Assembly: GCA_021773355.1 (NCBI GenBank)
Contig: JAJFKE010000050.1
Span: forward strand, 248,001 to 312,000
Direction: 5' to 3'
Length of the DNA stretch: 64,000 nt
Origin: Gammaproteobacteria bacterium
GTDB lineage: Bacteria > Pseudomonadota > Gammaproteobacteria > Pseudomonadales > Pseudohongiellaceae
Positions 48,314 to 50,874 of the stretch are shown piece by piece; position 1 is the first letter of the stretch; the number at the start of each line of letters is the position of its first letter. The translations under genes were made by a program, and so were the position numbers. Below the pieces are notes generated by a model. The model searched no databases and was not told the origin of the DNA. It was given only the letters and a program-made list of their open reading frames with translations.

Positions 48314-48739
48314 ATGCCGACTAATCAAGCACCGTTAAAGGTATCCAACACTTCTAATGTGCCTGGGCATACAATGTACGGAGATTGGGCACTGCCTGGG
48401 CGTAAGTATAGCTATATTGCCTTGCGCGAGCTTGCAAAAAAACACATGCCTGGCAAACAAGCCCAGCTGATTCAATTCAGCAATATCTGTGCAAAACCCG
48501 GAAGCTGGTTTGGCGACGATGACTTCTCCGGCCCGAGATTCGACGCGGCTGACACCAAATATCCTGGAATGCTAATACGCTCGATGCCCAATCCTTGTGG
48601 ACTAGCTTATCGCATGGTGGACGGTAGACGTCGATTAGAAAAACTGAAACGAGCAGGATTTGACACCGGATACTTTTTTGTTTTCGAATATGCAGATTGC
48701 GAAGAGTTTATCTTCGATTTCGAGCTTGAGACAAGTTGA
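48314..48739 (+). CDS. ParB-like-domain protein of unknown function
   Basis: This 141-residue protein ends in a stretch resembling the ParB/sulfiredoxin-type fold: CGLAYRMVDGRRRLEKLKRAG then GYFFVFEYADCEEFIFDFE. The DGRRR core is the part conserved in ParB-like nucleotide-binding domains. The first 40 residues are variable. No partition partner (ParA) is present. The ATG at 48314 has only a weak ribosome-binding site; a frame opens at 48242 and another Met lies at 48371, so the start is uncertain. Confidence 0.55.
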   Translation: MPTNQAPLKVSNTSNVPGHTMYGDWALPGRKYSYIALRELAKKHMPGKQAQLIQFSNICAKPGSWFGDDDFSGPRFDAADTKYPGMLIRSMPNPCGLAYRMVDGRRRLEKLKRAGFDTGYFFVFEYADCEEFIFDFELETS

Positions 48740-48769
48740 GCTAAGCGAGGACAGATTCTCGCCCAGGTT

Positions 48770-48807
48770 AGTTGGATCAGCCATGAGAACTCATACCCGA
48801 TCCAACT
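48770..48807. terminator. Hairpin between convergent genes
   Basis: AGTTGGATC (48770–48778) pairs with GATCCAACT (48799–48807), and an inner ATGAG/CTCAT stem lies within the loop. It separates the ParB-like gene from the convergent immunity-like gene. No T-run follows. Confidence 0.4.
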
Positions 48808-48821
48808 GAATGGTGTGGGCC

Positions 48822-49109
48822 CTACACCAGCCAGATATAGAGAATTGCAGACAGCATGAGCAAATGGTATGCAGGAAAACCGCAGATATATTTCTTGTCG
48901 CGAGACTTGTCGGCAAGCTCTCCGAATTCATCCCATGATTTCGCCAGCATCATATCCGGGTTCCGATATAAAAAGTAGAAAGCGGACGCCGAAGATATTC
49001 CAATCATTGCACCAATATAACTCTGGTCGAAAAAAGTATGAAGAATCGCGAGACCTACTGATGTGCCACCCATAATGACAATGACTATTGTTGCAGTTTT
49101 CAGCTTCAT
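48822..49109 (-). CDS. Small membrane protein, candidate bacteriocin immunity protein
   Basis: This 95-residue protein has about three hydrophobic helices (residues roughly 5–22, 27–46 and 75–94), a basic N-terminus and a charged cytoplasmic-type loop (WDEFGELADKSRDKKYICG). It starts 24 bases after the stop of a double-glycine bacteriocin precursor and is almost certainly cotranscribed. Small multi-helix membrane proteins in this position are the usual immunity proteins of class II bacteriocins and microcins. No sequence family is recognised, so immunity is an inference from size, topology and position. A TTG at 49136 opens a longer frame, but the ATG at 49109 is preferred. Confidence 0.65.
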   Translation of the reverse strand: MKLKTATIVIVIMGGTSVGLAILHTFFDQSYIGAMIGISSASAFYFLYRNPDMMLAKSWDEFGELADKSRDKKYICGFPAYHLLMLSAILYIWLV

Positions 49110-49132
49110 ACAATACTTGCCCTGTCTGTAGA

Positions 49133-49348
49133 TCAAGATAGCCAGTCGTATAATGCAGTTCCAGCAGAGAAACCTACTCCAAAGGAGGCTCCTACTAGTG
49201 CACCGCCGAGACCTCCGCGGGCTGCTCCTCCGATGGTATTGGTCGCCAAGGTGCCCAATATCGACCCCAATGCGCCTCCGTCAGCAGCCCAGTCGCCAAT
49301 AGACCCACCACTGACCTGTTCAATTTCTTGCTCTGTCAGTTCTCTCAT
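49133..49348 (-). CDS. Double-glycine leader bacteriocin (class II/microcin-like) precursor
   Basis: This 71-residue precursor has a 15-residue leader MRELTEQEIEQVSGG. It carries the classic ELTxxEIxxVxGG pattern cut by C39-peptidase ABC exporters. The predicted mature peptide of 56 residues is Gly/Ala-rich with GxxxG spacing (GGLGGALVGASFGVGF), as in pore-forming class II bacteriocins, and has no cysteine. GGAG lies 7 bases before the ATG. A small membrane protein gene follows, but no C39 exporter or membrane-fusion gene is in the window, so processing must come from elsewhere. Direct repeats upstream (49494–49512) may be regulatory. Confidence 0.82.
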   Translation of the reverse strand: MRELTEQEIEQVSGGSIGDWAADGGALGSILGTLATNTIGGAARGGLGGALVGASFGVGFSAGTALYDWLS

Positions 49349-49493
49349 TTTGAATCTCCATTACTAAATTAAGTTTTTGAATATTCCTACTTTCCTGAAG
49401 GAATAAGCTAAGCGTAGTAAGGATATTTTCGATCCGCCAATATCTGCGAAAATTTGACTAGTGAAAACTAACTGGCTTTCCCCGGGAAAACTA

Positions 49494-49512
49494 GTTTACA
49501 AATGGTTTACAA
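49494..49512 (-). promoter_or_regulatory. Direct repeats GTTTACAA, 11 bases apart
   Basis: Two exact copies of GTTTACAA (49494–49501 and 49505–49512) start 11 bases apart, about one helical turn. They lie about 150 bases upstream of the bacteriocin start. Such spacing is typical of sites for regulators that bind as tandem dimers, including those of peptide-pheromone systems. The link is inferred. Confidence 0.35.
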
Positions 49513-49601
49513 GTCGGGGCAGTGGCTGAGATGACCAAGAAACTTTAAGTGTCTAGCAGGGTGACTATGGGGAGGAAATTGGACGAATGACTTTCCTTAG
49601 C

Positions 49602-49623
49602 GGGCGATACCAGAGCATCGCCC
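49602..49623 (-). terminator. Hairpin after thrC
   Basis: GGGCGAT pairs with ATCGCCC around an 8-base loop, 22 bases beyond the thrC stop. The run of T lies on the plus-strand side, so termination of thrC is uncertain. Confidence 0.35.
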
Positions 49624-49644
49624 TCTTTATTAGTTAATTTGAGA

Positions 49645-50874
49645 TTAACAATCTCTAATGAAATCAAAGTCAATCGGCTTTGCTAGATCGATCTTATGAT
49701 GGCTAGATGGCATCGGATATTTCAGGCCGGTTGCACAATTGAAAAGCATGACCTGTTCATCATCTTTTATGCGGCCGCTTTTTAATTCTTGTTTCAATGC
49801 GGCGAGTGTTGCCGCGCCTTCAGGGCAGAACAAAATACCTTCTTTGAGCGCACATTCTTGATGCGCAGAGACTATAGACTCATCACTCACCGCTACGGCG
49901 AAACCTTTGCTTTCACGCACGGCATCCAAGATCAAGAAATCGCCCACCGCAGCCGGAACCCGAATACCGGAAGCAATAGTATGAGCATCAATCCAGGGTT
50001 CCGCATGTCGGGTACCTTCATCGAAAGCTTTCACAATCGGGGCGCAGCCTTCGGCCTGCACTGCGACCATACGCGGCCGCTTTGACCCTATCCAGCCAAT
50101 TGCTTCCAGTTCATTGAAAGCCTTCCACATGCCGATCAAGCCGGTGCCACCACCGGTGGGATAGAGAATAACATCGGGAAGCTGCCAATCCAGTTGCTCG
50201 GCCAATTCCAAACCCATGGTTTTTTTGCCCTCGATTCGATACGGCTCCTTCAAGGTGGATGCATCAAACCAATTCATCTTCTCCTTGCCTTCGCCAACGA
50301 TGCGGCCACAGTCGTTAATATAGCCATTGGCTAGAAAAGTTTTGCCGCCTTGAAACGCAATCTCCGCAATATTTATCCTGGGAGTATCTTCCGGACAGAA
50401 CACATAGGTTTCAATATCTGCTGCCGAACAGTAAGCAGCCAGTGCAGCACCGGCGTTGCCGTTTGTCGGCATCGCCATGCGTTTTACCCCTAGCTCCTTT
50501 GCCATAGCGACAGCCAACGCTAGGCCCCTGGCCTTGAATGAGCCAGTCGGTAATCTTCCTTCATCTTTGATCAGGATTTCACCGCAACCATACTCGTTCT
50601 GCAATTTCTCCGCAGGCAGTATTGGTGTCATTACCTCACCCAGACGAACAATATTGCTGGCCTTTCTTACGGGTAGAAACTCGCGATATCGCCAAAATTC
50701 GGGAATTCGTGTCTCCAAATCTTCTTTGCATACGGCTTTAGAAAGAGCTTCTAAATCGTATTTAACCAGTAGAGGTTTGCCAGCTTCTGACAGGCCATGT
50801 AGTTGGTCTGCCGGATATGTCTTGCCTGTGTAACTACATTCCAGATGAGTTACAAAAGTGTCAATTTCCTTCAT
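49645..50874 (-). CDS. thrC: Threonine synthase
   Basis: This PLP enzyme converts O-phosphohomoserine to threonine. At 409 residues it belongs to the shorter fold-type II threonine synthase group with an N-terminal zinc-ribbon-like start (LECSYTGKTYPADQLHGL). The PLP lysine is in LPTGSFKARGLALA near residue 116. The phosphate-binding glycine loop is YPTGGGTGLIGMWKA, near residue 235. The downstream gene is the bacteriocin precursor, unrelated in function. A miniature element lies in its upstream region (50904–50966). No other threonine gene is nearby. Confidence 0.88.
   Translation of the reverse strand: MKEIDTFVTHLECSYTGKTYPADQLHGLSEAGKPLLVKYDLEALSKAVCKEDLETRIPEFWRYREFLPVRKASNIVRLGEVMTPILPAEKLQNEYGCGEILIKDEGRLPTGSFKARGLALAVAMAKELGVKRMAMPTNGNAGAALAAYCSAADIETYVFCPEDTPRINIAEIAFQGGKTFLANGYINDCGRIVGEGKEKMNWFDASTLKEPYRIEGKKTMGLELAEQLDWQLPDVILYPTGGGTGLIGMWKAFNELEAIGWIGSKRPRMVAVQAEGCAPIVKAFDEGTRHAEPWIDAHTIASGIRVPAAVGDFLILDAVRESKGFAVAVSDESIVSAHQECALKEGILFCPEGAATLAALKQELKSGRIKDDEQVMLFNCATGLKYPMPSSHHKIDLAKPIDFDFIRDC

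Follow-up and report, generated by a model that had tools for sequence, protein, structure and literature searches.

The window, a 64,000-nucleotide stretch of contig JAJFKE010000050.1 from a gammaproteobacterium of the Pseudohongiellaceae, carries on its minus strand two small genes lying one behind the other, with the following features.

49133..49348, minus strand: precursor gene, 71 aa, a conserved family under purifying selection
49304..49348, minus strand: codons of the 15-residue double-glycine leader MRELTEQEIEQVSGG, with GG in 20 of 23 visible leaders
49136..49303, minus strand: codons of the 56-residue Gly/Ala-rich core, a predicted helical hairpin
49356..49359, minus strand: GGAG ribosome-binding site of the precursor
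49110..49132, minus strand: gap of 23 nt between precursor stop and partner start
48822..49109, minus strand: partner gene, a 95-aa membrane protein from ATG, candidate immunity protein
49400..49419, minus strand: upstream element around CTTAGCTTATTCCT, alike in 11 of 11 aligned upstream regions

The gene pair and its family

The division of the 71-aa precursor into a 15-residue double-glycine leader and a Cys-free 56-residue core, which in the window copy ends in GTALYDWLS, is as the first-pass annotation of this DNA described it, and only the spacing to the partner, given there as 24 bases, is corrected to 23 nt. An alternative TTG start would give the partner 104 aa and overlap the precursor stop; homologues align from the ATG. 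A promoter scan of 48600-49700 yielded a single match, which falls within the partner gene. Upstream of the precursor, positions 49400-49500 hold a CTTAGnTTATTCCT-like element and TGTAAAC motifs common to 11 aligned upstream regions.

Orthologous pairs in relatives, the GGAG site and an excess of synonymous over non-synonymous change identify both frames as real genes, beyond chance. Against 13 homologues, the window copy of the precursor has pN values of 0.13-0.32 and pS values of 0.71-0.89; for the partner, compared with 9 homologues, the ranges are 0.17-0.24 and 0.70-0.85, and in both sets of comparisons dS is mostly saturated. Closer pairs agree, with dN 0.089 vs dS 0.613 for the precursors of genomes G080 and G091, dN 0.058 vs dS 0.472 for their partners, and dN 0.055 vs dS 0.152 in the least clear pair, G077/G101. 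Purifying selection acts on precursor and partner alike. The core is of low complexity and the window copy scores below the cut-off of every curated family, as might be expected of chance open reading frames in a Gly/Ala-rich stretch; that reading carries a negligible probability in the face of these substitution patterns, and conservation and selection rule it out.

In the predicted structure of the precursor, a leader helix (residues 6-13) precedes a core hairpin (17-36 and 39-70), with a mean pLDDT of 82 and a range of 55 to 82 over five models. The three helices ascribed to the partner in the first-pass annotation reappear as three long helices in its AlphaFold2 model (3-28, 31-49 and 79-94; mean pLDDT 73), the last at low confidence, with values that drop to the 50s beyond residue 70. 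Neither model matched a PDB entry in Foldseek at E 0.001. The pair had also been said to belong to no recognised family, which stands insofar as every match of the window copies remains below its cut-off and needs qualifying for the precursor, as weak matches do exist. The window precursor scores 22.2 bits against Pfam MccV (PF17508; curated cut-off 27; match over residues 1-62) and 19.8 bits against Bacteriocin_IIc (PF10439; curated cut-off 27.1), and within the family 8 of 17 members match MccV at E 0.01 (best E 0.00013) and 7 of 17 match Bacteriocin_IIc (best E 1.8e-5). Other weak matches occur among family members, and the NCBIfam E492 group gives the window precursor 13.1 bits against a cut-off of 50. 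For the partner, no curated family exceeded its cut-off with the window copy, and one weak match was seen among 17 partners. Because the MccV cut-off is missed, the peptide is kept out of that family and called class IIa-like; precursor and partner are best read as a new family.

A first scan of genome contigs with the precursor as query confirmed no relative. A single-sequence precursor search matched 12 of 58 relatives, all within the genus and three of them weakly, and a profile search gave matches in 37 of 84 genus genomes at E 0.01. Matches at E 2.1e-20 or better comprise 23 copies in 22 genomes; together with G060, whose copy is cut by a contig end, these are referred to as module genomes (23 of 84, with 24 precursor copies). 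Matches lacking leader cover in G067, G032 and G092, and a second one in G103, were not counted as precursors. The partner search found 18 copies in 17 of 61 genomes, every copy on the same strand and directly behind a precursor, and the wider set added the partner or its remains in five further module genomes. Thus a partner, intact or damaged, adjoins 23 of the 24 precursor copies; the exception is G103, where the precursor is truncated and the partner lost. Three partners are damaged, by an internal TAG (G035), a frameshift (G023), or loss of the start and an early stop (G098). One genome, G017, holds a tandem pair of diverged modules (L064 159-1423).

In 13 genomes, the window genome among them, the module adjoins the same 409-aa gene, presumably threonine-synthase-like; G060 and G063 show its other flank, and in eight genomes neither flank lies in the fetched stretch. 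Nine named loci stem from metagenome assemblies. Within the samples searched the family is seen in this genus only: with the partner profile, the window genome was the sole match among 293 genomes of the order, three of them from this genus. Phage and plasmid origins were considered and set aside, as no partner match was found in viral contigs (with patterns taken from close relatives only) or among 72,556 plasmid records.

Conservation within the precursor is highest in the leader. Across 17 aligned precursors M1, R2, E3, L4, T5, E8 and V12 are invariant, so that the MRELT start is kept in all. Conservation of the double glycine, on which the first-pass annotation had staked its reading, was borne out: among 23 visible leaders 20 end in GG, the others being those of G073 (GA), G012 (SRAG) and G079 (RGRG). 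In another 11 genomes like leaders stand before clearly different cores, six of these genomes carrying exactly MRELTYEEMEQVDGG, and this occurrence of a conserved leader on unrelated cores fits recognition by an exporter. Such precursors with different cores lie at loci L071-L073, L129-L137 and L173; no exporter genes were found close by L071-L073 and L129-L137 (12 loci). In the window genome the leader profile finds one precursor (E 6.5e-12), the next match being at E 4.1.

An unlinked C39 exporter operon

The first-pass annotation had found no C39 domain among the ABC exporters of the window and had advised a search for one elsewhere in the genome, holding that its absence would count against the proposed function. 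PF03412 has one match in the window genome, at C44:197607-197987 on another contig than the module, and hence the window itself has no stretch that qualifies as a C39 domain. Its ABC exporter at 15-16 kb resembles the C39 exporter in the ATPase half only. The PF03412 match falls in a 694-aa C39 ABC exporter that forms part of a conserved operon, with genes for HlyD (419 aa), for an 85-aa acyl carrier protein (22.2 bits to PP-binding, cut-off 20.8) and for a 347-aa acyltransferase (29.7 bits to Lip_A_acyltrans, cut-off 22.3) upstream, and genes for 249-aa and 328-aa proteins, neither with a family over cut-off, downstream. The carrier protein and the lipid-A-type acyltransferase thus lie inside the exporter operon (L002 7937-12633; G000:C44). 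The 249-aa protein (L002 7149-7898 in the window genome), which may be a degenerate REP-associated transposase, is present in 15 of 16 further exporter loci, again without a family match. The genome also has 17 TolC-type OEP domain matches.

Across the genus, PF03412 has matches in 31 of 61 genomes. The 16 further exporter loci show the operon in 15 cases (G067 has an unrelated exporter instead), with gcvP in view in 14 and pepQ in 14, and five additional operon loci were added, in one of which (G091) the contig ends before gcvP. The C39 Cys, His and Asp are retained in 21 of 21 syntenic exporters, including that of the window genome. The acyltransferase is found with its histidine in 20 of 21 operons (G061 is cut), and the carrier protein with its serine in 14 of 21, with a similar open reading frame in three more; it was not found in the operons of G065, G102 and G079, and that of G061 is cut.

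Searches of 17 exporter loci, and of another 12 loci beside gcvP of which five have the operon, turned up no leader-bearing open reading frame. Exporter genes were likewise not seen at 34 loci with a module or another precursor, some of these loci being short contigs. Among the 16 module genomes with HlyD, module and HlyD lie on separate contigs in 13 and on one contig, 198 to 263 kb apart, in G011, G012 and G013.

Co-occurrence and loss of the exporter

HlyD relatives (E 1e-10 or better) are present in 35 of 84 genomes. With kinship ignored, HlyD occurs in 16 of 23 module genomes vs 19 of 61 others (p 0.0017), in 10 of 11 genomes with other precursors, and in 26 of 34 genomes with any GG-leader precursor vs 9 of 50 without (p 9e-8). 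In the 48 genomes that are at least 90% complete, and with kinship again ignored, the association with any GG-leader precursor persists (20 of 24 vs 6 of 24, p 6e-5), while for module genomes alone the link is weak (11 of 15 vs 15 of 33, p 0.07).

Seven of the 23 module genomes are without HlyD, and in six of the seven the exporter is visibly deleted at the gcvP locus. At that site G003, G098 and G080 retain relics of the 328-aa gene, G023 has fragments of that gene and of the acyltransferase gene, and G087 has a piece of the 249-aa gene; nothing of the operon is left in G103, and in G101 the contig ends at this locus. PF03412 had no match in G003, G023 and G080, the three of these seven genomes covered by that search. 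In G012 the HlyD reading frame is broken and the leader is without GG. When G012 is added to the seven HlyD-less genomes as exporter-impaired, the module is damaged in four of eight (G023, G098, G103, G012) vs 1 of 15 with HlyD intact (p 0.03); the exception is G035, where the exporter is present and the partner has an internal stop. If the G079 leader, which has neither GG nor GA beside an intact exporter, is counted as damage, the latter figure becomes 2 of 15 (p 0.08). Module damage accompanying exporter loss suggests dependence on the exporter.

A microcin-like module and its possible modification

Class II microcins are described, in passages of PMC9746304 and PMC10233263, by five components: a precursor, an immunity protein, a C39 ABC exporter, an HlyD-type adaptor and TolC. 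The leader is defined in a passage of PMC10233263 as 15-18 N-terminal residues ending in GG or GA; that of the window has 15 residues and ends in GG, and 21 of 23 visible leaders end in GG or GA. A gene for a small membrane protein with predicted helices (95 aa) lies 23 nt downstream of the precursor, and the C39 ABC exporter with its catalytic triad and the fusion protein are encoded in the genome, unlinked. The Gly/Ser-rich C-terminus of the class IIb siderophore motif is absent from the window core. The microcin-like system suggested by the first-pass annotation gains from the conservation of the GG and from the single unlinked C39 exporter, with killing and immunity as predictions, and the pair is probably a class IIa-like microcin/immunity module exported in trans. 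The genome's one C39 peptidase-ABC exporter, working with the HlyD adaptor, would recognise the leader and cleave it behind GG, and a TolC-like protein would complete secretion. The mature Gly/Ala-rich helical hairpin may then kill closely related cells by entering their inner membrane, with the 95-aa partner presumably shielding the producer. Against a microcin count the weak link between module and HlyD among near-complete genomes, the G079 leader that ends in neither GG nor GA beside an intact exporter, the broken G035 partner in a genome with an exporter, and the missed MccV cut-off. So do the seven module genomes that are without HlyD, at least three of which (G003, G080 and G087) still have both genes of the pair intact.

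Those three genomes, with the exporter missing from its usual site, are also what would be expected of an intracellular membrane toxin-antitoxin or stress pair that is never exported, as is the hydrophobic, Gly-rich core. Such a pair is improbable, as it gives no reason for a leader that is better conserved than the rest of the precursor and that also heads unrelated cores. A peptide that leaves by the same exporter and works among the producers themselves, in signalling, autolysis or biofilm formation with the partner as receptor or modulator, has rather more in its favour, since GG-leader peptides with such roles are described in a passage of PMC11798529 and in PMC4997328. The former reports gonococcal Nap peptides, which have class II microcin features and, according to that passage, promote self-lysis and do not kill competitors; the latter reports GG proteins involved in Synechococcus biofilm. 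The Nap peptides are likewise small GG peptides of a Gram-negative host, but the Nap island has its own C39 peptidase and a FapF-like channel. The strict pairing with a small membrane protein, the 35-50% identity of distant partners and the varied cores under one leader fit toxin and immunity better, and a role within the population is therefore unlikely.

The class IIa-like microcin remains the preferred reading, and its closest counterparts are the class IIa microcins of the microcin V type, which have in common with it the GG leader, the small core, the adjacent small membrane protein and, in the genome, a C39 exporter with its adaptor, along with the weak MccV match. It differs from them in missing the MccV cut-off, in the distance of the exporter genes from the module, in an exporter operon that includes an acyltransferase and a carrier protein, and in an activity that is predicted only. 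Export of peptides encoded elsewhere has precedents: two pairs of verified microcins each use a common export system (passages of PMC9746304 and PMC10233263), and pneumococcal C39 exporters handle double-glycine peptides of other loci, such as BriC by ComAB (passage of PMC7595303). The pneumococcal case is Gram-positive, and its exporters have cognate peptides at their own locus, of which none was found here. The exporter also resembles those of NHLP bacteriocin export, scoring 433.7 bits against TIGR03796, with HlyD at 55 bits against TIGR03794. These scores are far under the curated cut-offs of 853.3 and 156.2, and the precursor leader is of the short GG type.

The presence of a carrier protein and an acyltransferase beside a peptide exporter suggests lipidation of the cargo; an envelope lipid is just as possible a substrate for the two. 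Five of six genomes sampled from the sister genus (g23) have the acyltransferase, and in two of them (G305 and G264) the operon order is AMP-binding enzyme, carrier protein, acyltransferase, HlyD and C39 ABC. No GG-leader precursor is visible near these two operons (L169 4378-10777 and L170 4950-11501). It is possible, as a tentative proposal, that this is a fatty-acylated microcin system, in which carrier and acyltransferase would acylate GG-leader peptides before or during export, one operon would serve scattered and diverse precursor cassettes, and in the sister genus an AMP-binding ligase would load the carrier. The window core has no lysine and no cysteine, so that an acyl group could be placed only on Ser/Thr or on the new N-terminus, and no carrier was seen in the operons of G065, G102 and G079. 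A literature search found no description of a lipidated-microcin system or of such an acylation/export operon.

Validated class II microcins number ten, mostly from E. coli, according to the abstract of PMC9746304. Here, in a genus outside the Enterobacterales, a single exporter operon occupies a constant position and GG-leader peptides of several types are encoded elsewhere in the genome, and as exporter and precursors are unlinked, searches for linked clusters would miss these peptides. The repeated deletion of the exporter provides a natural test of their dependence on it. Should the carrier protein and the acyltransferase modify the peptide, the product would be a lipidated microcin.
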